Assembly: GCF_008831285.2 (NCBI RefSeq)
Contig: NC_045138.2
Coordinates: 26,755,934-26,819,933, forward strand
Direction: 5' to 3'
DNA length: 64,000 nt
DNA from: Nymphaea colorata
Taxonomy: Eukaryota > Streptophyta > Magnoliopsida > Nymphaeales > Nymphaeaceae
Below the pieces are notes generated by a model. It ran no database searches, had not been told where the DNA came from, and saw only the letters and a list, made by a program, of their open reading frames with translations. Position 1 is the first letter of the stretch. Each line of letters starts with the position of its first letter. Positions 9,401 through 49,593 of this stretch are shown here, piece after piece. The translations under genes were made by a program, and so were the position numbers.

Positions 9401-12400
9401 TTGCCATCAATCATGATTCATACACCACAAAAAAAAAAATAACTTTTCCAATAAACCACCAAATTAAAGAATATTAATAAAGCTCTAAAGAAAGTAATAC
9501 CTAAAGGAAATATAAAAAAATACAATGAAAAAGGGGAACTTCTAATGGAAGATAATTCTCACATTTAAGGTGAGGTGTTTAGATGGAGTGTTTTTGATAT
9601 TCACAAATATCGTTCCTGGGAAAATATCAGCAAGGTTTTTCTCTTATATTTTTTAGCGATTCTTCTCAAGAAAATCTTGACAATTTTTGAAAAACTAAAA
9701 AAAAAATTAAAAAAACCTTAAAATGATAAAAAAAATAAAAAATATTAAAATCCCTGTACAAAATCACAAGAAAATGATAAAATCACAAGATTTTCTATTG
9801 GGTGAGATTTTCAAAATCTTGCAACCTTTCCCAATTTGTTTGTTTTATTTGATTTATTCATAAATATCGCGAGATTTTTAAAAATCTCGTGATATCTGTG
9901 ACACACTGTTTCTGTTCTCTGTCCAGATTTCCTACTTCAGGTTTCCAAAAGGCGATGATTTCCAAGAGTGACTAGTTTTGTAGGAAACAGATGTCAAAGT
10001 GAAGCTAGTTATGAAATGTAGAAAATTACAAAATTGGAAGATGATATAGACCTTACTAGTGAAATATATGCCACTTGTCATATTAACTTATTTTCTTTCC
10101 TTGGAAATTATGAACAAGCATCTTATTAGTAATGACTAGACTGGAAGAAGCTCTCCACCAAAAGGGAAAAACATGCATGAAATTACAAAATATATACACA
10201 AGAAGGAGCTAAGCTCCACCTCCACCTATCACTTTTAGGGTAGTATATTTTGCCTAATACAAGCAACTCTTCTCACTTAACATGTCCTCTCCTCATGTGC
10301 ATTATCCGCACTCTGCACCATTACAATCTCCCTAGTACCCTGAGTGCCTATGCTGGAAGGGGAGATGCCTTGTACAAAATCTCCAAGTTCTTTATTATGT
10401 AAAGCTTTTTCACTATATTAATCTACATTTATATAGTCAGAAAGTTGTGAAACTTTCCAACTGGTTATATTTGCATGGCATGATATTCATGCTTTCAGTT
10501 TATGCAATGTGGAACATAATTAGAACCATAAGATTCATGAAGAGCTTCTATAAGTCGGCCATTAAGACACAAGTATAATATAGGGAGGTTGATATTTCTA
10601 GTGTGACAGTATATTCATAATTCACAACAATAAAAGGCAGCTACCGTCACCAGTCCAGTAATAAAAAATTATAGAGAAAGTGTACCTGAGCATTCATGTT
10701 AGCACCATCCATGTAAACTTGACCCCCATTTTCATGAATTATTCTGCAAATCTCATCAATGCCCTCTTCATAGACTCCATGAGTTGAAGGATATGTAACC
10801 TGTTTCATATATACAAACTGAGTTATGAGACCTTTATTTCATAATTCATTCACAGTAATCAGCGAATGGAAATATATCTTAGACTTCAGCAAATGAACCA
10901 TATCTCTGGATACCAAAAGATAAATCTGTCGAGCTCTAGATATGGTGGTTAGACAAAAAAGAAGATGCATAGCATGTACCATTAGAGCAGAGAGGTTGTC
11001 CCGGTTGGCTTCAGCAGCTTTTCTCAACTCCTCTATGTTAATATTCCCCTTTGCATCAGTGCCAACTGCAACAATTTTCATCCCACACATGGCTGCACTA
11101 GCTGGATTTGTCCCATGAGCAGAAACAGGTATGATGCAGACATTTCTGTGGTGATCACCTCTTGCCTACAGAATAAATTTTGATTGGAGTGAACTATCAG
11201 AAAGCCTCCAAATACTTGGTTTACATGTCGAGATTTGGAATACATACTTTATGATAAGCACGGATAACCATAAGTCCAGCATACTCTCCAGCAGCACCAG
11301 CATTTGGTTGCAATGAGAAGGAGTCAAAGCCAGTGATGGTGCACAATAAGTTACCCAAATCATCGAACATTTCCTACAGTATTTATATTTAAGAAAAAAT
11401 CAGTTCCTAGTTCCTAAGAATTAGAAGCAAACTTGCGAACTGAAGATAGGCCCAAAAAGAAGATTGCTAAACAATTACTTGGTAACCAGCCACTTGGTCC
11501 AAAGGAGCAAATGGATGAATATCTGCAAAGCTGGGCCAAGTAACAGGCATCATCTCCACTGTTGCATTCAGTTTCATTGTACAAGATCCCAACGGAATCA
11601 TGCTGTGACATAATGAAAGATCTTTTGATTGGAGCCTGTGAAGGTAGCGAAGAAGTTCATGTTCTGTGTGGTACCTGAAAGAGTAACACATATTCAAGAG
11701 TTAGACGCACATATTTATGATACTAATAGGAATATATAAGAACAGAAATATACTATACATGTTAAAAATTGGATGGGTCAAGTAGGCACTCTTGCGCACT
11801 AGCCCATGCGGAATACTGGCCTGCACCTCTGCTGCAAGAGATTCAGCTGTGAATGGTACCTAATGATCAACCACATCATTTGAACAGCCATAATCAGAAT
11901 TTAAAGCAAGGCCTTTAGAGAGAATTACAAGCTTATACTCACAGGTTTACCACCAGCAAACACTTCAAAAAGCTTGTCAACATCCTCCAAAGTAGTAGTT
12001 TCGTCAAACGATACGGTTATCTGAAACAACAAATTTACATCCCTCGTAAATCCAGACCACCAGTTTTGGAGTGAGGACATCGCTTTCTTATGGCTTGGAA
12101 AATAAAGGCAAGGTCTAGAACTGCTTACAGTGTTCTTGTCAACCACCCTTAAATTCATCTCATGCTTGATGGCAGCTTCTGAGATTGCATGCGAATCAGC
12201 ACATTTGACCTTGACAGTGTCAAAGAATGGGAGCTCAGGAGGAGTCACAGTTCCAAGTTTCTTTAGACCAAACGCAAAAGTCCCAGCAAGGCCATGGACA
12301 CGCTCAGCAATGGCTTTTAGCCCTTCAGGTCCATGATAAACTGCATACATTGCAGCCATATTTGCAAGTAATGCCTGGGGAAAAAGAGGAAAATTAAGAA

Positions 12401-14331
12401 GGATTCTCCAATATATAAAACACTCCAGATAGCATTGTTTAGGCTCACAGACTGATAGGATATACCAACTTACGTTGGAACCAGGGTAACTTTTTAAATT
12501 AGATTATGGATCGCAAGCTAATACTACAGGATCTCAAGCTTTGGATATTTAATGTCTCCAAATAACTAAACCTGACTCCAACTTCAAATTTAATATGGAA
12601 AAAGATCTATCAAGTAAACAGACTCAGAACAAAAACGTTCTGTAAGAATGGTCATTTTGTGGCCTGATGCGAGATGCGGTTAATCGCTTACTACACTATT
12701 TTTGAGTATCAAGCAACAATAATTGGTGATCATAAGCCTAGGAGAAAAGATCCATAAACCAAAGCAGCAGCAGCAGCAGCAGATTGAGAACATCACCCTT
12801 CACATAAGTCGTTTGAGAATTACAAAAGCCTATGGAATAATTTATCCATCAAAGATCTAAACTAGATTACGTCCATACCCGAATCCAAGTTATGAGAAAT
12901 CCAAAGAATTCGGGAATAAACTCATTGATCGAAGATCTAAACTATAGCCAAATTTTAGGCAGACCGGAACCCCTGTGATGAGAAACACACAGATTTCTGG
13001 AGTATACATACCCGTCGAAGATCTAAACTGCAACCAAGTTCCATGCACGCATGAATCCGAGTTATGAAAGATCAAAAATTTCTAGACAAAAGCTAAAGAT
13101 CTAAGCTATAATAACCAAATTAGGAAGAAACCTGAGCGGTGCAAATATTGCTTGTGGCCTTGTCGCGCCTAATATGTTGCTCCCTTGTCTGCATTGCCAT
13201 CCGCAGGGCCTGCTTCCCCGTCGAATCAACACTCACTCCGATGATCCTCCCAGGCATCATCCGCTTGTACTCTTGTGACGTTGCCAAGAACGCAGCATGA
13301 GGACCACCATAGCCCATGGGAACACCAAATCTTTGAGCCGATCCGACGACGATGTCGGCCCCCAGCTCGCCTGGAGGCGTAAGCATTGTCAAGGCCAGCA
13401 GATCCGACGCCATGACCACCTTCACGCCACTGGCGTGCGCCTTCTCGATGAAAGCTGAGTAATCGATGATCTCTCCCTCTGTTCCAGGGTACTGAACCAG
13501 CACCCCGCAGACATCCCCAGATGCATAACTGATATCCTTGAGATCGGAAACGACCACCTCGAGATCGAAGCCGCCGGCTCGGGTCTTGCAGATGTCGATG
13601 GTCTGCGGGTGGCAATTCGAAGCGATGACGAACGTCTTTTTCTTCCCCTTCTGGATGCTGTTGCACATGGACATGGCTTCCGCCGCGGCGGTGCCCTCGT
13701 CGAGGAGGGAGGCGTTCGACATGGGGAGCCCGGTGAGATCGGTAATCATGGTCTGGAAATTCAGCAAGGACTCAAGCCTCCCTTGCGCGATTTCGGCCTG
13801 GTAAGGAGTGTACTGCGTGTACCACCCTGGATTTTCCATGATATTCCTCAGAATCACGGCCGGCACAAAGGTGTTGTAGTATCCCATCCCGATGAACGAC
13901 TTGAAGATCTTGTTCTTGGAGGCGAGCTCCTGCATGTGGGCGATCATCTGGCTCTCCGTGAGCCCCTCGTCGAACTTGGAGAACTTCATAGGCTCGATCC
14001 GAATCGATTTCGGGACGGTGGCGTCGATGAGGGCGTCGACGGAGTCGAAGCCGACGGAAGAGGCCATCTTCGACTGCTCGTCCAGCGTGGCGGAGTTGTG
14101 ACGGCGGGGGAAGGTGTCGGACGGCTTCAGAGCCTCGACGGAGACGGAGCGGCGACCAGAGAAGGAAGAGCACGGGGAGTTTGTGGTGTAGTTGGGATTG
14201 AAGAGGCGGGTAGAGGGTGAGGTGAAGGAGGAGAGGTACCTAGCTTGGTGGTGTTGGGTTGCATGATGTTGGCGGTTGGCCAGGAGGCGCCGGAGGATTG
14301 CCCGGTGGGCGAGCTTCCTGGCACGTTCCAT
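6494..14331 (-). CDS. GLDP: glycine dehydrogenase (decarboxylating), P-protein of the mitochondrial glycine cleavage system
   Basis: The P-protein binds pyridoxal phosphate, decarboxylates glycine and passes the aminomethyl group to lipoylated H-protein in the mitochondrial matrix, the photorespiratory step shared with T and L proteins. Fifteen exons in transcript order: 14331-13132, 12374-12129, 12020-11943, 11859-11759, 11674-11479, 11373-11248, 11165-10980, 10799-10686, 9319-9167, 7975-7787, 7706-7629, 7551-7426, 7341-7243, 7082-6965, 6585-6494. They sum to 3,102 nt in frame, giving 1,033 aa, the usual plant length. The start [17 protein letters not shown] is a typical arginine-rich mitochondrial presequence. 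The PLP lysine is K769 in [18 protein letters not shown], encoded in the 9319-9167 exon. The C-terminus is [12 protein letters not shown] followed by an Ala-rich tail. Exon 1 is GC-rich and intron-free for 1.2 kb; the largest introns (9320-10685, 7976-9166) hold repeats. All junctions are GT/AG, and no break is seen. Confidence 0.97.
8470..8583. repeat. 53-bp-arm inverted repeat (hairpin) in a glycine decarboxylase intron
   Basis: The left arm 8470-8522 pairs with the right arm 8531-8583. There are only two non-matching positions across 53 bp, one of which would be a G:U wobble in RNA, and an 8-nt loop (atatatac). It lies inside the intron 7976-9166. It could be a small fold-back MITE or a young MIRNA-like hairpin; no target duplication is obvious and no known miRNA sequence was recognised. 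Confidence 0.9.
8751..8816. repeat. perfect 33-bp tandem duplication
   Basis: A 33-bp unit starting gtgagtcctttcatcagcag occurs twice back to back (8751-8783, 8784-8816) without mismatch, in the same glycine decarboxylase intron as the hairpin at 8470. Perfect identity suggests a recent slippage-type duplication. Confidence 0.97.
9864..9895. repeat. 32-bp palindrome in an AT-rich dispersed repeat
   Basis: 'atatcgcgagattttt' is followed immediately by its complement with one mismatch. The palindrome ends an AT-rich segment (about 9540-9900) containing 'aaaatctcg' and 'gagattttc' words in an intron of the glycine decarboxylase gene. Similar words recur at 19.9-20.1 kb and 26.15-26.3 kb, suggesting one degraded dispersed repeat family. 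Confidence 0.7.
12763..12782. repeat. (AGC)n trinucleotide microsatellite
   Basis: About six perfect AGC units in the first intron of the glycine decarboxylase gene (12375-13131). Non-coding. Confidence 0.9.
12849..13090. repeat. degenerate tandem repeat of about 80-86 bp, 3 copies
   Basis: The word 'tc(a/g)aagatctaaact' starts units at 12849, 12929 and 13015. Later shared words are 'gaatccaagttatgagaaa' and 'gaatccgagttatgaaaga'. The copies are diverged, so the duplication is old. It fills most of intron 1 of the glycine decarboxylase gene. Confidence 0.7.
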
Positions 14332-14852
14332 GGTGGCCGGTGGTGGGTGTCGGGGAGGGGAGGAGGAGGGAGGGGAGCTCCTCCAAGATGGGAGAGCTGA
14401 TGGTGGTGGTGATCTGGGAGTTTGGAAATGGTGGGGAGGGAACGGAGAGTTTTAAAATAACCCCATCGAAAACTTGTGCCCATCGTTAGCTCGCAGATTT
14501 GGTGGTGATGGAGAGAGGGAGAGAGGGAGATTGAGATTTGATGGTCTGTATTCCATCGCGGAAGAGAATCACCGTTTTGGCCTCCGCCATTGTCTCGTCT
14601 TTCTTTTCTGCACTTCCCCTTTCCATTTTTCTCATTATTAATTTCTATAATGGAATCTTGCGTCGGACCGTGATCGGATGCTCGCGTTCCATGGACAGGA
14701 CGACAAGAACGTCTTGTTCTCTGCGCCTCTAAACAATTGTGCCAAGTGTCCATCGTTTGATGAAGCTAAGCACAGACAACGTGTTTGTTAACGACCAGAC
14801 ATGTTAGATAAAGGAATAGAATAGCTAAAATCTATATCATTTTTTTTCTCAT

Positions 14853-21500: not shown

Positions 21501-22686
21501 GAATTTCTGCCAACTTTGCTAAACATGTTTGGTTTCTACTTTTAGCTAATTGTGTGAAAGGAATCGCAACAAATATCTGTTTTTTCCTTTTTTCTCAGCT
21601 TCATGAAAGTCCTGATTCCAATATATTTAATGCTTCATTTGTACAATAATTTGATCAGCACGGCTGTCAGTGTAAAGAATCCTAATCAATAACTCGATTC
21701 TATATACATATTCTCAAGAAGCACTATATGTCTGACAGTCCAAGCCTGCCTTACCACACTAACCCGATTGAGTGTAGTTTTAGTTTTAAACTAATTGCTG
21801 GATAGAAATGTTGAAGCGCTTCTTAATTCAGAGAGAGGGAGAGAGAGAGAATAAGGCACATAACATGTCCGGCAGATACCTACCTGGCTGAAGAAGGTGA
21901 AGAGTAAAACAGTAATATGAAGAAATGTCTGTCAGGAACTAACTTTCACAGAAGAAGAAGAAGAAGAAGAAGGAAGAAGCAGGGAGGGGGGTGGAACTTG
22001 CTTGGAAGGAGAGGATTTAGGCAGAAAGTACATCTACGGTTGGGAATTCATTTTTCAACGTCGACATCCAAAATAAATGTGCTTGGCATAATGTGGTATG
22101 ACCACAACTTTCTGTGGTCAATATTATAGATTTGGCAATAAAGAACCTTAAAGCCTAGGGTGGGGTTATAAAGAGCTAGGGCTCTAGTTGGAACAGAAAA
22201 TGAGGTCCTAGCTAGCTAGTGACCTAAACCAACTTGGATCTGAATCTGCCTGCAACCAATTCAATCCCATTCACGAGAGCTAAGCTACACATATGAACCA
22301 ATCAATGGCGAGGCTGATGCAAGTTTTTAAGTGGGCATTGTCAAGTTTCACACATGAATGATCCTATCAAAAGGATTGCAATACGAAAACAGCGTATTTT
22401 TGGTTTAGATCCACAGAAAATTTTTCTCCTACTTGATGGGATCTTATCGATTTAAGGAGCCAAATCTTGAACAGTTAAAAGGCCACTAATGATTTCTTGA
22501 ACAATCAGGCTGGACTACCCTAGAGTTGCTAACTCATAGACACACAAGGACTAAACCAAAGCGGTTTAATTTTTACTGCAACTAAGAGAAGATCTAGTGC
22601 CACAAAACCACATATTTCTGGTTACTGTAGCATGAATATTTGGCATGCAAGCTTGTCAAGAATGTATATACGATTACTGATAAACG

Positions 22687-22915
22687 TTGCTTCAAATACT
22701 GAGAAAACACCGGAACTATTTTCATGTCGTTCATACTTCACACTGTAAAAGTATCACAAATCTACATTGCTTCAAATACTGAGAAAACACCGGAACTATT
22801 TTCATGTCGTTCGTACTTCACACTGTAAAAGTATCACAAGCCTACATTGCTTCAAATATTGAGAAAACACCGGAACTATTTTCATGTCGTTTCATACTTC
22901 ACACTGTAAAAGTAT
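22687..22915. repeat. 80-bp minisatellite, about 2.9 copies
   Basis: Units start at 22687, 22767 and 22847 with 'ttgcttcaaatactgagaaa' and share 'accggaactattttcatgtcgtt'. Copies differ at only a few positions. The array is followed within 20 bp by a (TA)n tract, 1.1 kb upstream of the MADS start. There are no CRISPR-like variable spacers. Confidence 0.96.
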
Positions 22916-34728: not shown

Positions 34729-37728
34729 ATGGCAATGGCTAACCATTCCTCTTCCTCTTCGTCGTCTTCGTCCAGGGTCGAAAGTCTTCGCAGCGAGCGC
34801 ATCTATTCATCCAAACTATACTTTGATGTCCCACCCACCAAGGTATAAGATCGTTCAGCTGTCCTCATTTGTTAGTTTGTTGTTTTGGAAGTGAAGAGTC
34901 TCATAGTAAAAGTATTAGTCTTGCTAGTCTATATTTCCTAAAGGGTGCACTGTGGACAGCCCTCGGTGCATGACATGTGTTCCCTTTGGCCACATGAGCA
35001 TGTGTATGATACACAGGTGAAAAAGCCTGTGTACATAGTGCAACTTTGCTCAATTTGGCCAATTTGGCATTTCAGTAAGATCTTGGATGTAGTTCATCTG
35101 TCTAAAACTAGTTTACCTCTCTTGCAATCTTTTTGCTCGTAAGTTTTATATATCTTGCATGATACACAGCAAAGTAGTTGACTATATTGACCATGTGTTG
35201 TGCACATTATTTTTTCAGCATGATATGTTTAATCACGTGTTCTCCTTGAGCTTTGAAGTTGTGAAGTAAATCTTCTCAAGAAATGTATTATTTTCCCACG
35301 AACTTATGCTCCATATGCGCCTCACTCATAGATTGTTATGTGCGATCCCATTAGAGGACACATTTTCCTTAGAATCCCTTCAATAATTGTTTCATAACAG
35401 CAGTTGTGCGTTGCATGTTGCTCTTTTGGGCTGGATGGTTCTAGAAAAGTTGCACCATCAAAATGCCTCTTCTCTAGAACTTCATCATTCTTCTCTTTTC
35501 GACAAGGCAATTAGCTAGAAATTGCGTAGATTATGTTAAAAAAGATAACATAATTAAACCATCTTATAATGGTCATTATGTCCCCCATTATTGTTCTAAA
35601 TCCTTTTTAACATTCATCTCCTTTTCTATCTATATATCTAGCAATCTTGATGTGTATTAATGTTTGACATAATATGTTGTGAGCGCAGGTTCCCATCATC
35701 TACTCCAAATCCTACCGTATCTCGCTCTTGGGTTTCGAAAGAATGTAAGTGGACGGCTGCTCCACTTACCCCACCGCGTTTGATTCTCAAGTTTGTTAAT
35801 CCTTCATTAATTAACGCATTTAATCTAGGGAAGTGAATTAAGTTTTGCTTAAGTTATATTTGACAAGTTTCTAGGATTGTATTTGAAAGGTCACTCTTGA
35901 ATCTAAACAAATGAAAAAAAAGGGATAAATTTGTTCTTTTACCTGCTTTGGCATTTTAACCCGTTATAAACGCTTTTAATTAGGCGGTTTTGCATTCTGT
36001 GAGAAGGAAAAGTCACATCTTTCAATTTCAATGTCATTTTTAAAGAGTTTTATGTTTGTAAATAAATTGAAACTGAATGAGACTGTTGAATGGGTACGTT
36101 GCGCCATGAAAATGAGCGGTTGGTCCTGCCTTTACATCACACGGGATTCATCTCCTTTTCGACAAAGTAAAAAAAATTTGTTTCATCTTTTTCTTCTTTC
36201 ATAATAAATGACATGCAATACGTTTTCATAGTAGTCCCCATCTTCCTTGCCACTTTCCAAAGTTTACGTTTCTCCTTTTAACCTTTTATTTTATGTAATT
36301 TTTTTATGTTTACTATACACAAAATGTAAACATGTTTGTGAATATATTTTTACAAGTACCAAACTTGCTTCGACTTTCATTTCATGAAAATAATAAAACA
36401 TTGGAATCTTTATTATCAAAATCTAGTGGTAATAAGAGCAATTAGCTTCTTAATGATTGATAAAGGGCCGGGAACCTATCTATAATTATTCGAAATTTAA
36501 TTTTCTATAAATTTATTCTAAAAATCACTTTCATAATTTATTGAAAGAAATTTGGTTTTTGTTCCGAGATGTGATCTGATTGCTTTCTGATTTTGGTCAA
36601 CAGCTCTGGGATCAAGATCCAATTTTGTTGTGGTCCAGATTCAGAATTAAATGCCAACAGATTTAGATCTGAAGAACCTTGATCCATATCTTGTTCAAGA
36701 AAAAAAATGCCAGAAAGTGAATAGTTAACTGGACTAATTTTTTTTTGCTTAATTAATCTTAATCACCTACGGGCAGTGAAACTATACCAATCACCTTATA
36801 AGAGTAATATGTGGGTTAAGTTAATAACTTCACAGATGTTACTACTTTCATTAATTAAGTTCATTTTTTAAAAAATTTTTCTTGAAGATTTTCATCTTAT
36901 TGTTTCTTTTATTCCACATTAAGTCGCTCTCCTGAGCCCTTTTTTCTTCATCTTAATTCCGCCATTCTTCTTCAATTGATCAAGGCACCTGTTCGATTGT
37001 TGCAAAGGAGCCCGTATATGCCGATTCCTCATTGAAGAAGGGATTCTGAGCAAAACCCAAATCGTAAAGCCGGTTTCGGCTTCCAAAGATGATCTTCTTG
37101 TGGTAAAGTTCATTTGCCCATGATTCATGAATCAATGTCAGTCTTTTTTTTTGTTTTTCTCTCTTGATCGTTCTTTGAAATAGTCATAAGAAGATCTCTG
37201 CTTTTTTACTATCCCTTCATTCAATTATTGATCGGTTATGAATTTGGTTATCTGATCAAGGTGCATTCGAATGCATATCTCAAGAGCCTGAAGAAGAGTG
37301 CGAATGTGTCTGAAATAATTAAGGTAAGGTTTGAGTCACATTGCTGCTTGAATATGTTCTGATGTTGGTCATAATCTGAATTAGGATGCTTAATTTGATG
37401 GCTTATGAATGTTAGCATGGATCTAATTTCACCACATTGGTAAAAAAATTGTCATATCATACTTAGATTTAATGACAATTGATTGGTAACCTACTGTTTG
37501 CACATCAGATTTCAGCAGTTTCTCTTCTTCCAAACTACATTGTTCAACAGCGGATCCTACGCCCACTGCGCAAGCAGGTACAATATTTTCAAAAGCCACA
37601 TCATGCGATCATAGTTACTTCTGGAGAAAAAAATAATTCACCACATAATACAATGTTATGTGAATCTGCTGCCAGCAATCTTTAGGGCAGATGCATAAAA
37701 CAGTATGTTACTGTTTCCATTGCCAGTA

Positions 37729-37762
<34 letters not shown>

Positions 37763-40446
37763 TGACCAAAAATTTGAAAGAACATTAATATGTAAAAGCA
37801 AACCTTTTGTAGGGCTGTGTGGGCAACTGCCCCCACGAGCCTGCATGTGGTTCGGCCACTGCCTTAGTGTTGGAAGATGCCGTGAGCTAGAATTGGTCGT
37901 AGATTGTTGAACATGAGTTATCACAGGTGGGTGGTACGGTTCTGGCAGGGAAGCTGGCGAAGGAGCGAGGTTGGGCCATCAACGTTGGCGGTGGTTTTCA
38001 CCACGGCTGCGCAGAGAAAGGCGGTGGATTCTGTGCATACGCAGACATCACACTTTGCATCCGTTATGCATTTCAATGCCTAAATATTACCAGGTAGAAC
38101 CCCCTTCAATATTTCACAATTTCATGTATTTAATTACTCAAACAAAATTTTTGATCCAATGTTTTAAAAAAAGAATACAAAAAAAGTATACCTGATGAAA
38201 TTATTTATTCACTTAATTGGATTTATGGAACTGGATTTGGACTTGAATTCATTGAGGCCTATAAGATCTGACATTTCCATGCAATTGAGTCAAATCTTTG
38301 TGGAATCCCAGTTGGGTATTGGACCTGGATTCATGATTGGTTGTGAAACTGCATGCTCGATCCAAATCTCAGTTGCCAATCGGATCTGGATTTTTTTTTA
38401 CCAAATCCAACAAAACATATTTGAAATCGAATCAGTAATAAGATGCATTTAAATCCCTCGTTGAAAGACAGGAAAAAATGTTATTCAATATCGACCCCAA
38501 TATTTATAACTCATTTTTAAACGTTTTATTTGTCTTTGATATTTTGAAGGGCGATGATTATAGATCTTGATGCCCATCAAGGGAATGGTCATGCAACAGA
38601 TTTTGCAGATGACGGTATTCCCTGACCCTCTTAAATTAAGTTACTAAATATATAATGTCTCTTATCTTTGTTTCTAACATAAATTGATCTTTCTGCTTTG
38701 TACAGGAAGAGTTTACATACTTGACGTGTATAATAAAAACATATATCCACGAGTAAGCTCTCGAGTTCAATGCCGTAATTCCGTTCTTTTCCTTTTGAAG
38801 TTTGGGTTTTTTCTTCTTTTCCTGTTTGTAATTTACAGAATATAACTTTTTTTGTGATCTAATTTGTTTTAGGATTATGAAGCAAGAAAGCTTATTAATC
38901 AAAAGGTTGAGCTGGTGGTAAGCCTTCTCTCTCATGGCCAAGTCTTTAGAACAAATGCGTTGAAAATAATTCTTTAGTTCAATTCGATGGATTATGCATG
39001 TCATTTTAAACAGTCTCTGAGATATTATTATCCGTAATCAGAATATGTTACGCTTCTTCTTTTTATTCCATGAAAATGTTTGGCAAATTTTATATTCTTT
39101 GAATTAGCACTTGAAGGACCAATATTTACGATACTGAAAGTATTCCCCTGCTTTGATCTTGGAACTTTCAACATCTTATCACAAGCTCTGTGGCAAATAA
39201 AAAAAACATTCATAAAGAAAAAAGATTTAAAATTCAGCATGTTGTGCATTTTTAGCATTATTATTGCCATGTAATTGCATGTTATGAGCGTTTCATTGTA
39301 TACGTTAAATATACATGGATTTTATTGAAAATTGCAGAGCGGAACAACAACCGAGAAATATCTTGAATGTCTTGAAAATGCACTTCAGGTATGCTTGTTT
39401 TTATCTTTTGTTTCTTTCAATCAACAATATTGTCTTTCTTCTTCTACAATATTATTATTATTATACACAAGCATACACGCAGAAGCATTTTTTGTGTGGA
39501 TTATAAAATATGATTTCCTTTAGGCCGCAGAAAGGGCATTTCATCCGGAGCTAGTGGTCTACAATGCTGGAACGGATATCTTGGATGGCGATCCCTTGGG
39601 AAGACTAAAGGTGAGCATTTTTCTGTATGTTATTTGAATTTAATATGATTTATAACTAAGAAAAATTTCTTTCTTTGGGATTTCAGCCATAAACTTATAT
39701 CTATTTTAACATTCACCAAATTTAAGATAATTTTTTTTTTTTAACCGTTGTTTTATTGTAGAAAGTGGAGAACAGAGATTCAATTTGTAGAAATTCTGAC
39801 ATCAAGGTGTGTTTGGATGACACCCTCATAAAAACTTGTTTTCAAAAATTGGTTTTGTGAAAAAATAAAAACAATTTTTTAGCCATTTTTTAAAGATTAG
39901 TTTGTGCTGTTTAGGCCTTTCATTTATTTAACTGTAGTTTATTTAATGAGTTTACCTTGTAATTACCTTTATAGAGATTCATTGTAATTGCAAGTACATA
40001 ACGATACGAACAAGATTTACATTTGTAGATAACATCACGAGACATTTTTGGCTTGTATCATTTTGCAAGTAATCTGCCCTTAATATTTTGGATTTTAGAT
40101 CCAGATTTCTAAGCGCAAGCTCAAATTTGATCCTTTTAAACCTGTTCGTGCAGGTCACCCCGAACGGGATCATTGCTAGAGATGAGAAGGTGTTTAAATT
40201 TGCAAGACGAAGAAACATACCACTTGTGATGCTTACCTCAGGTTACCCTTTTTTTTCTTTGGTTCCTTTACATTTTATTTGATGAAATAAAAAAACGCAT
40301 TAAAGTTGTTCCTTTTTTTTTATGGTGCAGGTGGTTACTTGAAGTCAAGTGCTCGAGTTATAGCAAATTCTATAAAAAATCTAAAAGCAAAAAATTTGAT
40401 TGATCTGGAGATGTCTGAAAGCAAAGTGTCTGGTCAGTTTGTGTAA
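34729..40446 (+). CDS. HDA2: class IV histone deacetylase (HDAC11/HDA2-type)
   Basis: A zinc-dependent lysine deacylase of the HDAC11-like class. Thirteen exons: 34729-34842, 35689-35744, 36985-37102, 37261-37323, 37509-37577, 37927-38093, 38550-38614, 38706-38752, 38873-38917, 39338-39388, 39524-39610, 40154-40241, 40331-40446; 1,086 nt in frame, 361 aa. The active site is intact: paired histidines H165-H166 in VGGGFHHGCAEKGGGF, zinc ligands D203 and H205 in DLDAHQGNGH, D283 in NAGTDILDGDPLG, and catalytic tyrosine Y326 in TSGGYLKSSARV. The N-terminus is a short serine run before RIYSSKLYFDVPPTKVP. One oddity is residues 58-67, HLFDCCKGAR, where the family usually has HPFDSSKWGR, so the Trp is lost. 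Introns contain AT-rich repeats and a (TA)n tract. Exons 2 and 13 are duplicated as relics downstream near 44.4 and 45.0 kb. The start is the first ATG of the long frame; a second ATG lies two codons on. Confidence 0.93.
37731..37761. repeat. (TA)n microsatellite in a histone deacetylase intron
   Basis: A perfect 31-base TA tract in the intron 37578-37926. It is followed by a fragment with 'gggcaactgcccccacgagc', which resembles common plant transposon debris. Confidence 0.93.
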
Positions 40447-42083
40447 CTTACAATCTCAGGCACTACTTGCATTTTGTGTAATTCTTGTTTTAGATTTAAG
40501 AGGAAGGAGTTCCTTAAAAGTTCGAGGACTTCTTCTGGAATATTATCTCGTAAGAGAGCATTGTGGAGCACCTTCTTTGGGTGATCTTTATAAACCAATT
40601 CAATGTTCAAATAAATCCTCATATTCTACACTTCATCTTGTATTCTCTTGTTTATGTATCTTGGACATAATCTGTCCATGAGTTAATGGCATGGTTCCAT
40701 CAATGACATGTTGTGTTTCTTTTCTCAAATAGCTTTTCCCAAGAGAAGAAAGAGTGGCTGACCCATGAAATAATTTTCCAGATTGGTCTACAACCTGATT
40801 GTATTGACTAGAAAGCGAGTTCAAGCAGAAGGGCTATGTCAATATGAGATTGGTATCAGTGAGGATTTTTCATGATGAACTGTTCAGTCTAATCTCTTAT
40901 TCTTCCTCATTTGTTTAAATTTGGCTGCTGTGTCAAGCTGGATCACTTGCAATTGCAGATAAGAAGAATGAAATTGAACAGAGAAGTGTTGTCTAGAAGC
41001 AGGAAATAATAGAACTGTTATGCTCAAAATTTCTGTTGGATCCAAACAGATGACAGCAGTAGCCATTCATAATGTTCATCACAGAGGAACCTAACTAGGG
41101 GTGCATCACGTCAGGGAAAGAAATAACAATAACTAGCTTCCAAAAGATATCAAATCAACAAGGTTGAGCAATGCCAATTAAACAACTTTACCTGTGGATT
41201 TCAAACTTCAGATTTGCCAAACTGCTGATAGTGATTCTTCCTTGAAATCCAGGTGCCCACCTAGACGGCTATTCTATAGCCTAACTTCAGACCATCACAC
41301 ACATTTGTCATGTGCATGACTAAACTCGTCCTCTAACATGCAGGACTCCATATTTAGTACATTTCCAATATACTTCTTTCTCAAATTATTAGGAAAAGTT
41401 TTTCATTCAGAAACCCAGCACTTGATCATAATCCCAAAAATGGACCTCATATTCTGAATTCGGCCTCTGTTTTTGCTTTTATCTCATGCCTTTAGTGCAG
41501 TTATCAGCAAAAGTTGAGCCCGTATTAGAAGAGCACTGAAATGAGATGCCTGTCTTCAGGTTTACAACCAAAAGTTGGGACCTGCAAACCGGGAAGTTCC
41601 AATTTTTAATTGTAAGCTCTTCCCAGCAGTCACCCAGTACAGATCCTTATGCCATGTCCTCCTGTACCAATACATCTGTGAATGGTCTTATCATTCCCCC
41701 TCAAGTTGATTTTGGTGTCAAAAGGAACAAGCTTAATCTTGTTGACACCAAGAAATGGTAGTTGTCAGGAAGAAGATACCGTAGCCTACCTAAATCCTCA
41801 AACAGAAATGACCCAAGCACCCGTATATTAAGGTATTCTAGCCACCAAAATTCGTCGGAATCGTGGGGTACTTCAGTCATGTTCAAGATCAAGAACTTGC
41901 TGGGTGCCTGACCACTAGCCAAATGCAGAGGGATCCGATCATTTCGATATAGATAAGAAAGCTCCAACGCTCTCAGATTGCTTGTCCAGTTGATGCCTGT
42001 TATAAGATTTCTAGCTCTGTATATCAAGATCAATTAGTCCTCATCTCTTTTGAGTATTATGTGAATTTTGCAGTTGGAGAATA
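40447..42083. other. spacer between histone deacetylase and PRA1 copy A, with a possible decayed antisense LRR-like fragment
   Basis: The minus-strand frame 42033-41701 (110 codons) includes NLRALELSYLYRNDRIPLHL and LEYLNIRVLGSF..LGRLRYLLP, loosely spaced like leucine-rich repeats. The matching stretch in block B is broken by stops. It may be a relic of an LRR gene or chance. A conserved 'gaattttgcagttggaga' just before both PRA1 starts looks like the acceptor of a 5'-UTR intron, so much of this spacer may be PRA1 promoter and leader. Confidence 0.3.
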
Positions 42084-42093
42084 ATGACAAACT

Positions 42094-42630
42094 ATGGTGC
42101 CATTCCAACATCTTCTGGTGAGAGCAGTGGGCTTGATTTCATCTCAGGTCAAAAAGAGCAACAAATCAATCTTACCTACACGTCGGCCATGGAGAGAAAT
42201 GGTACATCTGCACGCTTTTAGCAGTCCATCAGGCTTCAGGGATTCGCTGGCCAGGTTCGTGACAAATCTGGGCTACTTTCGCGTTAATTATGCAATCATC
42301 GTCTTGATCATAGTCTTCCTGAGCTTGCTATGGCATCCGATTTCCTTGATTGTGTTCGTGGTCATGATTGTGGCTTGGTTTTGCATCTACTTCTTACGTG
42401 GTGAGCCTCTTGTGATCTTCGGACGCATGATTGATGATCGAAGCATCTTTATCACGCTGTCTATCACAACAATCATCGTTCTGCTTCTTACCGACGTCAC
42501 TCGGAATCTTGTGGTTTCTCATGCCATTGGCCGTGCAACTATTGTTCTTCATGCTCTTCTCCGGAAGACGGACGACCTGTTTGTGGATGAAGAAGAAACT
42601 GCTTCTCTAAGACCTCAGCCTGTCGATTAG
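42094..42630 (+). CDS. PRA1-family protein, copy A (probably decaying duplicate)
   Basis: PRA1 proteins are small multi-pass membrane proteins of the ER/Golgi that interact with prenylated Rab GTPases. The frame encodes 178 aa. From residue 25 (SILPTRRPWREMVHLHA) it matches copy B closely, including the identical run NLGYFRVNYAIIVLIIVFLS. Compared with copy B, a 2-nt deletion between about 42137 and 42170 shifts the frame: translation from the ancestral ATG at 42084 (MTNYGAIPTSS) ends at a TAG at 42219-42221 after 45 residues. The long frame must use a new ATG at 42094, which replaces the first ~24 residues. The second hydrophobic hairpin has gained polar or charged residues (TRNLVVSHAIGRATIV versus LNVVVSLAIGLAIIV). 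Either it is expressed with a new N-terminus or it is an early pseudogene. Confidence 0.65.
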   Translation: MVPFQHLLVRAVGLISSQVKKSNKSILPTRRPWREMVHLHAFSSPSGFRDSLARFVTNLGYFRVNYAIIVLIIVFLSLLWHPISLIVFVVMIVAWFCIYFLRGEPLVIFGRMIDDRSIFITLSITTIIVLLLTDVTRNLVVSHAIGRATIVLHALLRKTDDLFVDEEETASLRPQPVD

Positions 42631-43738
42631 GCTGTTCCTTGCATCTCTGCATCGTGGATTTGATCTTGCGTTTACTATTTGCTTTCTCTGTATGGTGTTT
42701 GTGTTTTCTTCGTCTCTTCTTTCCTCTTGCTTCACTATTTCATGAGTTGGCTGCCTCCTCTAAGATAGCAGGCTGCTCTATAGAAATTTTCCTGCATGCA
42801 TCGCCATTTTTTGAATTTTGACGTCTTGGGTTCCTCTCTTTTCTTCCTACGAAAGCATTTTTCCTTCTGGGGAGAATGTAGCTGAGCGGAAATAGTTCCT
42901 CACAAGAACCAAACAGGGAGAAAGTGTAAACGATTGTTTACATAACTCAAAAAGCTAGTGTGTGGAAGATGAAAGAAGAAAAAGGTAAGGAGCTGGAGAA
43001 AAGTCTTCCAAAAATACAGCCAGCCCAAGATGGCGTCGGTTCAAGCTATTCAAAAGAAAATGAGAGATTTAAGAGAACAAATCTCAATGTTTGTAAACTG
43101 TGATGGAATATGACAAAGATATGGAAAAGGAGCCTGATTTGATTTTGAATTTGAATTTTCTTGACCAATGTATATAAAATTAACTAAGGAAACCAGTCAT
43201 CGTGGAGTTGATGATTGAGATCGTGTGGTAGGAAGAAATTTATGAACCCCTGTTTATGTTTTATCTTCCCTTTTTATGGTAGTAGAGCCTGAAAGCTCTC
43301 ACCGGCAGATCTATTGATCCTAGTTGTTGCACCTTTTCTTATCAGGGCGACATCATGACATTGTCAGCAGCTAAGTATCCATATCCCTTTACTGTGAACG
43401 TGGCCAACTTTATTTCTATTAAACTGTCCCACAAGAACTACTTCTTGTGGAAGACAAATTCTTGGAGTCATAGAGAGTCAAAGAGCTCCAATACCTTTTG
43501 CCTGCTACAACGACTCTGATTCTCAGTCACCAAGGCACATGATGCAGGTCTGACCTATGGAGTTCTAATGTAATTTGTTGTAATTATACTCAGTGACCAA
43601 TTCGAGGGGGCCACGTGTCATATTTCAATTATTGGGTTTTCTTTGCATTAAATTTTTGAGACATTAAAGCCTCATTTGGATTTGGATAATATCTAGAATT
43701 CGTATCAAAGTTTATCCAGGTCTAGTATTTTTCCTATA

Positions 43739-44275
43739 ATTGGTATCAGAGTAAGTTTAGTGTAAGAGTGATCTAGAACCAGCTGCAAGTTCATCCGACT
43801 TATACACTGAACTTGTTAAGTGTAATAGTACGTGTTATTCCATAAAGATGCTTTGATATCATATTCAGGCAAAGTGGGTTTATTAGCAGTTACAATGAAA
43901 TGTTTAACCTTAGTAATTATGGATATTGGAAAGTCTGCACTAAGTCATATTTTTAGAACGAGAGCTGCGGGACGTTCGATTGGGATTAAATATAAAAATC
44001 CCTACTGATGAAGATGCCAACAAAAAATGGCTGCTAAAAGCAAAAAGAGTCTTATTTATTACTATGAAGGCATCAATTGAACATGAACTACTAGAGCATA
44101 TCCTGAGCGAGCATCAGGTTGACAACCCAAAAGAGGTCTCCCTTAGTCCCCCTGCCTTTGGGATCCTATCTTGCATCGGCATCAATGATGGTTTTAGCTT
44201 GAATGTCATACATTACCACTTAAGACGCAGAGAACTAGAGACCTGTCTTTTCAGGTGCTAGATCATGTTACAAAA
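43739..44275 (+). mobile_element. Ty1/copia retrotransposon remnant (primer-binding site and partial gag)
   Basis: 'ttggtatcagagtaagttta' at about 43739 matches the usual copia primer-binding site for initiator Met-tRNA (tggtatcagagc). After about 150 bp, interrupted frames give NLSNYGYWKVCTKSYF and then, at 43980-44261, LNIKIPTDEDANKKWLLKAK and ASIEHELLEHI, which fit the UBN2-type gag of plant copia elements. Stops and frameshifts break it and no pol or second LTR follows. It sits exactly between the two copies of the duplicated block. The upstream 43.66-43.74 kb may be the end of a 5' LTR. Confidence 0.72.
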
Positions 44276-44309
44276 GATATATACTCAGAACATCTTATGA
44301 TCATCATTA

Positions 44310-45005
44310 TTACCTCCATTCTTGTTCTTTTCTATCTATATATCTAGCGATCTTGATGTGTATTGATCTTGACGTATGTTGTGGAAGCAGATTCCCATCA
44401 TCTACTCCAAATCCTACCGCATCTCGCTATTGGCTTTCGAAAGAATGCAAGTGAACGGCTTCTCCTCCCTCCCCACATCTTCATTTGATTCTCAAGTTTC
44501 TTAATCTTTCATTAATGCATTTAATCTAGGAAGTGAATTAACTTTTGCTTAAATCATATTTAACAAGTTTTTAAGATTGTTTGGAAGATTACTCGTGTTT
44601 AAAAAATAAAAAAAGACAAATTTGTTCTTTTACCTGCTTTGACATTTTAACCCGTTATAAATGATTTTTGTGAAAAAATATTTTTTTTATCTTTTTTTTA
44701 AAATTAATTCGTGACCTAAAACTCATCTTCTTGTGAATAACCTAGGGACCAGGTTATTCGATCTCTTTTGGAAACCAGGTTTTGTCGAAGAAATTTTTGA
44801 AAAAACCTGGTTTTAGTGTTCTACAAACACTACAAAAAAACTGTTTTGGCTTTAAAATTCTGTTTCATGTTGTCATCCAAACACTAACCAAATAGCCGAC
44901 CCTTATCAGGAAATGGCTAATCACACTGCCCGAGTGAAGGCTGAAAAAATTGATTGATCTGGACATGTCTTAATTGAAGCAAAGTGTCTGATCAATTTGT
45001 ATAAC
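44310..45005 (+). pseudogene. histone deacetylase relic (exon 2 and exon 13 fragments only)
   Basis: 44391-44446 is a 56-nt copy of deacetylase exon 2 with its acceptor AG. It reads IPIIYSKSYRISLLAFER, with two conservative changes from the parent (V to I, G to A). Its donor has changed from GT to GC. The parent's following intron continues to about 44660. After about 280 bp of other DNA, 44943-45005 matches the end of parent exon 13 (LIDLDMS) but with an in-frame TAA. Exons 3-12 are missing, so this is a deleted duplicate that cannot encode an enzyme. Confidence 0.88.
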
Positions 45006-45303
45006 TTAGAAAAATGAAATAAACTGAGAAATGTTATCTTGCAGCAGGAAATAATACTACATATCTGTAACATGAATACTGAACTGTCCCAAGTGCATCA
45101 GTTAAGGGATCTCATTTTGATTTCCTAGAAGTGATATGCTCAAAATTTCTGTTGGATCCAAACAGGTGATAGCAGTATTCATTCATGATCTTCATCGCAG
45201 AGGATTCTAACTAAAGGTGCATCACAACAAAGAAAGAAATAACAACAATTAGCTTCCAAAAAGTATCAAATCAACAAGGTTGAGCAATGCCAATCAAACT
45301 TCT

Positions 45304-45839
45304 TTACCTGTGGACTTCAAACTGCAGATTTGCTTGACTGCTGATGCTGATGCTGATGCTTCCTTGAGGTCCAGATGACCCCATGCTTTGCATGTGGGAT
45401 GGTGCCCACCATTCTATAGGCTCCCCACCATTTGGAATATTAAAAAACTGAGGCCTGACCAGAAAGGAGCAGTGCCTAAGCTGGACATATCCACTAAAAG
45501 AACTCAAAGAGCCAGAGACGGACCATCACACACCTTTATCATATGCATGATTGAGCCCACATGACCAGGGTTTCTCTTACATGTAGTCCCCCATTGAGTA
45601 CATTTTCACTAAACTTTTCTCAAATTATTAGGAAAAGATTTTCATTCAGAAACCCAACTCTTGATCATAAGCCCAAAAAGGGACCCCCTATTCTGAATAC
45701 GGCCTCTGTTTTTGCTTAATCTCGGGTCTTTGTTGCAGTTTTCAGCAAAAGTTGGGCCTGTATTAGAAGAACTCTGGAATGTGAGGTCTGTCTTCAGGTT
45801 TACAGCCAAAAGTTGGACCTGCAGAATGGGAATTTCCAA
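45304..45839 (-). other. minus-strand open segments in block B, possible decayed gene
   Basis: Two minus-strand frames (45507-45304 and 45839-45642) have balanced, protein-like composition, for example FNIPNGGEPIEWWAPSHMQS followed by a GT donor-like site, and LLAVNLKTDLTFQSSSNTGP. Parts are recognisable in block A (41.2-41.6 kb) but with stops. I do not recognise the family. They could be exons of a dead gene carried in the duplication or simply leader sequence of PRA1 read backwards. Confidence 0.22.
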
Positions 45840-46242
45840 TTTTTAATGGAGAGCCCTTCCCAGCAATCACCCAGCACACAGCCTTATGCCATGTGCTCCT
45901 GGACCAATGTATCTGTGACTATGAATGGTAGTTGTGAGGTTTGCCTACCTAAATCATTAAACAGAAATTACCCAAGTGCCCATATGTTAAGCTATTGTAG
46001 CTACCAAACTTCATGAAATCAAGGGGTACTTCAGTCATGTTCAAGGTCAAGATCAAGATCTTGGTGGGTGCTTAACCACTAGCCAAATGCAGAGAGAACC
46101 CAATTGGATATATATAAGAGATTTTATGCACCCAGATTCTTTGTCCAGTTGATGCCTATGATAAGATCTCTAGCTCTCTATATCAAGATCAAGTAGTCCT
46201 CATCCCTTTTGGGTATTATCTGAATTTTGCAGTTGGAGAGTC

Positions 46243-46791
46243 ATGTCAAACTATGGTGCCATTCCTACATCTTCTAGTGAGAGCAGCGGGCTTGGTTTCC
46301 TCTCTCGGGCCAAGGAACGAGGCAGATCAATCTTGGCTACACGTCGGCCATGGCGAGAAATGGTACATCTGCACGCTTTAGGCATTCCATCGGGCTTCAG
46401 GGATGCTCTGGCCAGATTCAGGAGAAATCTGGGCTACTTTCGCGTTAATTATGCAATCATCGTCTTGATCATAGTCTTCCTGAGCTTGCTATGGCATCCA
46501 ATTTCCTTGATAGTGTTCTTGGTCATGTTTGTGCTTTGGTTTTTCCTCTACTTCTTTCGTGATGAGCCTCTTGTGATCTTCGGACGCACGATTGATGATC
46601 GAATCATTTTGATCACGCTTTCTATCATAACGATCATCGTTCTGCTTCTTACCCATGTCACGCTGAATGTTGTGGTTTCTCTCGCCATTGGCCTTGCAAT
46701 TATTGTACTTCATGGTGTTTTCCGCAAGACGGATGACCTGTTTGTGCATGAAGAGGAAACTGCTTCTCTAAGCCCCCAGCCTGTCGTTTAG
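46243..46791 (+). CDS. PRA1-family protein, copy B (intact)
   Basis: A single-exon gene for a 182-aa PRA1 protein, the normal plant size. The start MSNYGAIPTSSSESSGLGFL and RAKERGRSILATRRPWREM match the usual N-terminal layout of the family. Two hydrophobic hairpins follow, roughly residues 69-105 (NYAIIVLIIVFLSLLWHPIS onward) and 120-157, separated by the short charged loop RDEPLVIFGRTIDDR. The tail is RKTDDLFVHEEE, an acidic C-terminus as in other PRA1 proteins. Such proteins help Rab GTPases and cargo leave the ER and Golgi. An AG acceptor just before the ATG (tgaattttgcag) suggests a 5'-UTR intron. It lies in block B of the duplication and is the better preserved copy, so it is likely the functional one. 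Confidence 0.92.
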   Translation: MSNYGAIPTSSSESSGLGFLSRAKERGRSILATRRPWREMVHLHALGIPSGFRDALARFRRNLGYFRVNYAIIVLIIVFLSLLWHPISLIVFLVMFVLWFFLYFFRDEPLVIFGRTIDDRIILITLSIITIIVLLLTHVTLNVVVSLAIGLAIIVLHGVFRKTDDLFVHEEETASLSPQPVV

Positions 46792-49122
46792 GCTTTTCCT
46801 TGTATCTCTGCATCTTGGATCTGATCTTGCGTTTTCTGTTTGTTTTCTCTGTTTGGTGTTTGTATTTTCTTCGTCCCTTCGTTCCTCTGGTTTCACTATT
46901 CATGAGTTGGCTGCTTCTTCTAAGATTGCAGGCTGTTCTATAGAATTTTCCTGCCTTCACTCCCAACTTTTGAGTTTTGATGTTTTGGGTTCTTCTCTTT
47001 TCTTTCTACGGGATCATTTTTCCTTCTGGGGAGGATGTAGCTGAGCGGAAATAGATCCCACAAGAACCAGACGGAGAAAAAGTGTAAATGATTGTTCTCA
47101 TAACTCCAAAGGCTAGTATGTGGAAGATGAAAGAAGAGAGATATTGCAAAAATGAAAAAAAGCTAGAGAAAAGTTTTCGATTTCGGACACGCAACCGGCT
47201 CAACCAGTTCCGAAAATATGCAATTGGGTGCTGCTGATGCCTCTGTTAGTTGTCTAAGTTTGTACATCAATGGATCTGAATCCTGGCTTTCTTTTGAGAT
47301 CGAACGCTGGCGCTGCCTCCATTACCACTTAACAAGGTACGACTGAGTATCTACAGGATGCTGTTCGTGGAAATAAACTAGAGCGTTACTGTTGTGCTTT
47401 TACTCTGTTCCTGTGAAAGTGTTGTCGATTCAGTTCTCCAGATCGGAACGGTGATGAACAGCATTACAGTTTCACCCTTCATTGTAGTTAAATTTGATGT
47501 GTAAGATTTAGAATTTCTCTGAAATGGACAGAATGCTGCTTCATCTTTCCCAAGTAATCGTGTGTAAGAGAGCTTATCAGATTTGCTGTTCATGGGGCAT
47601 CGGCCAATGTTCTTCAATTCTTGTGATTTTTCTTTATTCTTCCTTTGTAAGATGATCTCAGCTTCACTGTTCCGGGGTAACTAGACGAAGTTTCATCTAA
47701 TATTTCCCTGAAGCGGAATGTTGTTTCATTTCTTTCTTTTCATATCAACAGCATCTTTAAGGGCACATCAGCTTTCTTGTTCATGGTTGTCTGATGTACT
47801 TGGTTTTTGTATATTTCTATCTGTTGAAAAAAATGGAAGATGGTTCTTGTCCACTTCTGCTGGCTTTGCATGCTTTTTAAGCAAATTTTGACAGTGCTAT
47901 GATCCTCAAGACATGTGCCTACTTATCAGTAAGTATGTGATGTCAATTTTCTCTATCGAACTCGGCATTCCATGATTTACTCTGTTGGATAGTGGCCACC
48001 ACTTCAATTGCTCTAACATACTCATCATAGGACTCGATATTTGTCCCTGTTGTCAAACATCAACATACACATATATACATTGATTGAACTCAGTGATATC
48101 TGAATTACATTGGTAGGGTAGATCCCAGTCTCAAAGCCCTACCTCTCGAATGTCAAACCCATTTCAGGTACGAAGTCAAGTTGTAAGCCTTGGTTTTCAG
48201 AATAATTTCACCTTTGGCACCCAAATGAGTAAGAAATATGGATTTGATTTTCGCGGAGCAAGCAATAGAGAATTCCCTAGTTTTTGGTGCATAAATTCAG
48301 ATCTTCAGTTATTGAAAAATCCTAACACTGGACGGCAAGAAGTTGGGAGGAAAATTTGACACTTGATTTTTGCCAAAGGAACTTGTTCATTGTGTGGATA
48401 GGTGAGGAACGTTGAATGGTAGTTGGAGAAAGCTAACATCGTAGTAGCTTTGTCATCAGAATCAGACTACCTCGTTTTTTAACAGATGACCTCCTTTTCC
48501 TTCTCAAACCAAGATAACCTTGTTTGATTCAGCTACGCCCAAAATCCCAAGATTTTCAATCATTTTTGCCTGCTACAACGACCCTGATTCTTAGCTACCA
48601 AGGCACATGATGCAGGCCTCACTCATCCAGTTGCCAATTCCAGGGTGCCACGTGTTACGTTTCAGCTACTTTTTATTATTATTCTTTTTTTTTTTGTTTT
48701 AGTTATCTTTATATATTTTTTCCAATTATGTCTTCATAAGGTATTTTTGTTAGTACTTTTAAACGTGAGCCGATTGTCGGTTGCACTGCTTTAGGACTCG
48801 GAGTCACTTCACAAAAAGCAAAAAATAAAAAATACAAAGGTTATATTGTAGAAGGTGGTTGAGACTTGAGACTTCCACCACGAGCTTTTTCTCTCTACAA
48901 AAAGAGGTAAAGGCTACTGTCATGTGTATCAATTGTATGTTGCTAAGGGCTGCGGATGTGAAGGGGCAAGCAGCTCAAGCTCACTACGCGAGCTGATGTG
49001 GTTTGTAAGTTTCTAAGGGAATCTCTTGTTATTAGTATTAATAGTTTTTATATAGTGATCACCTTTGTGACCTTGTTTTGTTTGGTTATCGAGATTTCGT
49101 ATTTGATCTAAGGGGCATAGGG

Positions 49123-49340
49123 CATAGTATAGCTGGTTAAACTCACACACGATCGTGTAAAAGGTGCATTGTTAGCTTCCATTCATATGAGTGCTATTCT
49201 CCTGAAATGTAAATGATCGGATCACCAAGAGACATAGTATAGCTGGTCAAACACACGTTTGTGTAAAAGGTGCATTGTTAGTTTTCATTCGTATGAGTGC
49301 TACTCTCCTAAACTATAAATGGTCAGATTGCCGACAAGTA
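49123..49340. repeat. 110-bp tandem duplication
   Basis: Copies begin at 49123 and 49233 with 'catagtatagctggt(t/c)aaac' and share 'gtgtaaaaggtgcattgtta' and 'catatgagtgctattctcct' (second copy slightly changed). Identity is high but not perfect. It may lie within a decayed retroelement. Confidence 0.9.
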
Positions 49341-49593
49341 TACCATAGCCCACACAAGTATTGGGTACTACTCAAAAACCCGAAGTAGGGGGAATGAGGA
49401 GTTTTCAAGCCTCTTTTTCTTTGCAGTGTACATAAGAGCATTTTATATTTGTTTTAGTGCTCAAAAAATTGGGCAAATTCATAAAAAAGACTAAGGTAGA
49501 TTTAGTGTTCTTGTTGCCAAACAACATCTTATAGTCACTTAACCAGTTGTACTATATGGTCTATTATACTTAAAAATATTGCACTGCGTGCCA

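Follow-up and report, generated by a model that had tools for sequence, protein, structure and literature searches.

A tandem segmental duplication covering part of a putative class IV deacetylase gene and a PRA1 gene in Nymphaea colorata

Genes at the locus

We analysed a 64,000-nucleotide stretch of Nymphaea colorata DNA (the window), in which a deacetylase gene and two copies of a PRA1 gene, a gene of membrane trafficking, are associated with two neighboring blocks, A and B (Table 1). For the deacetylase of block A a gene model was assembled, with exon boundaries set by eye from the sequence. The first-pass annotation had rightly described this gene as retained in block A but gave it 12 exons, where our model has 13. 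All 12 introns of the predicted model are of the GT...AG type, and its frame contains no stop. The predicted product matched the Pfam family Hist_deacetyl (E 3.9e-55) and no NCBIfam entry; among solved deacetylases the best match reached E 1.9e-38, the others being weaker. The active-site motifs His-His, Asp-x-His, Asp, and Gly-Gly-Tyr align with those of the solved enzymes, so that both the domain and the motifs of a zinc-dependent histone deacetylase are present. We take the protein to be a putative class IV enzyme (HDAC11/HDA2 group), following the earlier label.

Both PRA1 copies carry the Pfam PRA1 domain and hence belong to the PRA1 family, presumably to subfamily F. As originally described, PRA1-B is intact (173.8 bits, E 2e-51) and PRA1-A is frameshifted near its start, where it is a net 2 nt shorter than PRA1-B. 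The remaining frame of PRA1-A still scored 139.4 bits, compared to 153.3 bits for PRA1-B over the same 142 residues. Of 143 residues, 29 are not the same in the two copies, a pairwise count that assigns no change to either copy. Three leucines in a hydrophobic stretch of PRA1-B, at residues 102, 108, and 112, correspond to arginine, histidine, and arginine in PRA1-A; over the differing sites of the hydrophobic part as a whole, PRA1-A is less hydrophobic at 11 and more hydrophobic at 6, which is no clear bias. A TATA-box-like site was predicted upstream of PRA1-B by a pattern scan covering ∼190 bp per copy, but the motif TATA[AT]A was not found in the aligned stretch upstream of PRA1-A. No PRA1 relative was found in the PDB, and none of the pattern matches to PRA1-B (5 in viral contigs, 30 in prokaryote genomes) could be confirmed.

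Table 1. Coordinates of the features discussed, as positions within the window
Feature	Position	Strand	Remarks
Block A	35527..43657	+	8131 bp; collinear BLAST chain to block B
Block B	44259..48691	+	4433 bp; collinear BLAST chain to block A
Chain link	35527-35977 = 44259-44668		BLAST
Chain link, weak	39846-39906 = 44659-44713		73.8%, E 2e-4
Chain link	40390-40453 = 44944-45011		BLAST
Chain link	40962-41011 = 45008-45056		BLAST
Chain link	41010-41258 = 45126-45380		BLAST
Chain link	41290-43008 = 45521-47178		BLAST
Chain link	43481-43564 = 48549-48632		BLAST
Chain link, weak	43597-43657 = 48634-48691		70.5%, E 0.001
Deacetylase gene, block A	34729..40446	+	13-exon model, open 361-aa frame
Deacetylase exons 1-5	34729-34842, 35689-35744, 36985-37102, 37261-37323, 37509-37577	+	
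Deacetylase exons 6-9	37927-38093, 38550-38614, 38706-38752, 38873-38917	+	
Deacetylase exons 10-13	39338-39388, 39524-39610, 40154-40241, 40331-40446	+	
14-mer GTGTTTGGATGACA	39809..39822	+	deacetylase intron 11, block A; perhaps the left-hand terminal repeat of a small transposon
PRA1-A, 5' coding part	42084..42221	+	stop after 45 codons; frame differs from that of the remainder
PRA1-A, remaining frame	42199..42630	+	143 aa, read from an internal ATG to the stop; contains most of the PRA1 domain
Identical run, PRA1 copies	42270-42350 (A), 46431-46511 (B)		75 nt, approximate coordinates
Inter-block stretch	43658..44258	.	601 bp; possible retroelement relic or filler
Deacetylase exon 2 remnant, block B	44391..44446	+	4/56 sites differ from block A
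14-mer GTGTTTGGATGACA, inverted	44871..44884	-	block B; perhaps the right-hand terminal repeat of that element
Deacetylase exon 13 remnant, block B	44944..45004	+	last 57 nt; 83.6% identity, E 1.5e-11
TATA-box-like site, PRA1-B	46109..46118	+	predicted by pattern scan
PRA1-B	46243..46791	+	single exon, open 182-aa frame

Collinearity of the two blocks

Blocks A and B were joined in a single collinear chain on the same strand, both in a self-BLAST of the window and when 34.5-44.3 kb was compared with 43.6-49.5 kb at high sensitivity. The chain passes through intron 1, exon 2, intron 2, and the end of the last exon of the deacetylase gene, and then through intergenic DNA, PRA1, the PRA1 3' flank, and a segment at the right end. 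Similarity confined to the PRA1 coding regions would have spoken against a segmental duplication; instead, introns, intergenic DNA, and flanks match as well. As a control, block B was reversed without complementing and compared with the A region. No match was obtained at E 0.01, which rules out chance similarity of the blocks. The two copies are adjacent, in the same orientation, and collinear over both coding and non-coding DNA, as in a direct tandem duplication. Blocks A and B are thus a genuine duplication, and the original proposal of a tandem segmental duplication with order and orientation kept is confirmed; its block ends (35.6-43.65 and 44.3-48.7 kb) were roughly right, the true ends lying slightly further out.

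Divergence between the blocks

Over seven aligned non-coding segments, picked for alignability, 264 of 1818 sites differ between the blocks (∼86% identity, ∼14% divergence). Most of 35978-40389 and 43009-43480 in block A, as well as 44714-44943, 45381-45520, and 47179-48548 in block B, were left out of this count as unalignable. Kimura two-parameter distances ranged from 0.141 to 0.181 in six segments and reached 0.271 at the right end, where 32 of 143 sites (22%) differ. Equal divergence among segments was compatible with a chi-square test both with the right end (p = 0.17) and without it (p = 0.91). Divergence is therefore comparable along the unit, if higher at its right end, and this evenness fits a single event.

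For PRA1 past the frameshift, Ks between the copies is 0.167 (bootstrap 0.088-0.273) and Ka 0.103. The comparison of synonymous and non-coding divergence that had been proposed as a check thus gives similar values, as one event would produce. The Ka/Ks ratio of 0.61 is what would be expected with one copy neutral and the other constrained; its bootstrap interval (0.32-1.24) spans 1, but also includes values at which PRA1-A could be under some constraint. The longest identical run between the PRA1 copies, 75 nt, was matched or exceeded in 12 of 5000 shuffles and is possibly a gene conversion tract or the result of strong or shared constraint in both copies.

Deacetylase remnants in block B

When the 13 deacetylase exons were searched singly against the window, only exons 2 and 13 gave a second match at E 0.05; block B has no match to the other 11. 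The absence of exons 3-12 from block B, as first described, was borne out, but exon 1 is missing too and only the end of exon 13 is left. Exon 1 with its upstream flank has no copy within the window, and the 685 bp of intron 1 that follow it left no trace in block B, simple-repeat matches aside in both cases. The homology between the blocks begins inside intron 1, 685 bp beyond the end of exon 1. It is thus possible that the deacetylase of block B was incomplete from the outset: if the breakpoint fell in intron 1, this copy would have been dead on arrival, and only PRA1 would have been duplicated in full.

The 14-mer GTGTTTGGATGACA, a motif chosen after it had been seen, occurs exactly twice in the window, once on each strand. 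On the simplest reading, a single small element with inverted repeats sat in the ancestral intron 11, and its left end would now be preserved in block A and its right end in block B. The split, facing 14-mers and the weak chain link 39846-39906 = 44659-44713 suggest that block B once contained intron 11. If so, exons 3-11 would have been removed by a deletion reaching from intron 2 into the element. Exons 3-12 were thus probably copied into block B and then lost. The 14-mers may instead mark two elements of a single family that inserted independently.

The stretch between the blocks

No convincing second copy of the 601-bp inter-block stretch was found in the window; its sole hit was weak and inverted (43723-43771 to 676-628, E 0.041). 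Four pieces of the stretch gave no accepted match in Pfam, DUF6030 (E 0.11) falling under the cut-off. The sequence TGGTATCAGAGT at 43741-43752 is one mismatch away from the initiator-tRNA primer-binding site, a motif known from retroelements in general, and a similar site was also present in 13 of 100 shuffles. Given this site and a gag-like look, the stretch is possibly a relic of an LTR retroelement. It could have replaced the missing 5' part of the block B deacetylase.

Origin of the blocks and fates of the genes

At the sequence level, an intact-looking deacetylase is now found only in block A and an intact-looking PRA1 only in block B. A different gene is disabled in each block: PRA1-A runs into a stop after 45 residues, and the block B deacetylase retains matches to 2 of 13 exons. 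PRA1 is present at full length in both blocks and is the only gene clearly duplicated whole. As an example of duplicated genes that decayed, the locus is ordinary, and we consider it very probable that one direct tandem duplication was followed by such decay until one working copy of each gene was left. The duplicated unit would have begun in deacetylase intron 1 (35527) or further upstream, contained PRA1, and extended to ∼43657 or beyond. Lacking its promoter and exon 1 from the start or from an early point on, the block B deacetylase would have been free of selection, and its exons 3-12 would then have been deleted. With two PRA1 copies present, one would have been redundant; PRA1-A presumably lost its frame and drifted, while PRA1-B stayed constrained. 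The outcome would be one working copy of each gene through ordinary non-functionalization.

The original proposal went further and described complementary loss from two complete gene pairs. In such a true reciprocal loss, the promoter and first exon of the deacetylase would have belonged to the duplicated unit, both gene pairs would have been complete, each block would have lost a different gene, and exon 1 of block B would have been removed when the 601-bp junction stretch arrived. The unmatched stretch does lie exactly where exon 1 would be expected, to the left of block B. Moreover, the exon 2 remnant has slightly fewer differences than expected under neutrality, as if it had been constrained for a time, but this signal is not significant (P = 0.095). 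Its splice donor is GC instead of the GT found in block A, and GC donors can sometimes be used in plants. Against this stands the lack of exon 1, its 5' flank, and the adjoining part of intron 1 in block B, and we regard this course of events as rather unlikely. Complementary loss as such holds for PRA1-A and for exons 3-12 of the block B deacetylase, but the evidence does not establish that both gene pairs were complete before the losses, since that deacetylase was possibly born without exon 1 and promoter. Similarly, one intact-looking copy of each gene does remain, but the claim that the losses restored this state implies a dosage effect, which lies outside the sequence evidence.

An improbable alternative is that PRA1-A is alive and produces the 143-aa protein from the internal ATG at 42199, the two copies differing in role. 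Its remaining frame is open, aligns to PRA1-B without gaps, and retains a good PRA1 score, and the lower bound of the Ka/Ks interval permits constraint. However, the upstream frame of 45 codons overlaps this ATG, 14 bits to the PRA1 family have been lost over the same residues, basic residues lie within the hydrophobic stretch, and the TATA[AT]A motif present upstream of PRA1-B is missing. That PRA1-A yields an N-terminally shortened PRA1, so that one tandem event created a changed, regulatory form beside an intact one, seems more improbable still. Draft assemblies can also generate tandem near-copies artificially, for example by setting two haplotypes in tandem. Here, the non-coding divergence, the differing gene contents, and the large insertions and deletions far exceed the usual allelic difference, making an artefact scarcely credible.

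Comparison with known duplications

In classical cases of reciprocal gene loss, or divergent resolution, different copies are lost in different populations or species. The locus resembles them in that different genes were lost from the two copies, but here both losses are found in one tandem pair on one sequence, and the block B deacetylase may never have been complete. A review by Katju (PMC3449122) describes partial tandem duplicates with breakpoints within introns, many of which were taken for pseudogenes. The locus shares with them a breakpoint inside a gene, here in intron 1, and one incomplete copy; it differs in that the unit also carried a second gene, PRA1, at full length and that the partial deacetylase later lost most of its remaining exons.

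Like the plant class IV (HDA2 group) deacetylases covered in PMC2671507, the protein of block A, whose class label is putative, contains a Hist_deacetyl domain. That paper gives one class IV gene for each flowering plant listed and two for Physcomitrella; a single working copy would accordingly be the usual state among the flowering plants listed. The PRA1 genes of cotton (PMC9141244) are mostly single-exon genes, several of them derived from segmental duplication. PRA1 is a single-exon gene here as well; unlike in that comparison, one tandem copy is frameshifted.

The locus changes no general understanding, but it offers a readable worked example of a two-gene tandem duplication returning to one copy of each gene, in which surviving intron and flank sequence allows some deletion ends to be placed. 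Its value would rise only if relatives had resolved the duplication differently, as lineage-specific losses can cause hybrid problems.

Other features of the window

Directly to the right of block B, at 49123-49349, lies a 106-bp unit in about two tandem copies that are 84% alike. Self-BLAST also revealed near-identical direct repeats (95%) at 22684-22915, with offsets of about 80 bp and 160 bp. A gene for the P-protein of the glycine cleavage system is located on the minus strand at 11928-14451, in two open frames that match Pfam GDC-P with E 4.7e-153 and 6.7e-19.
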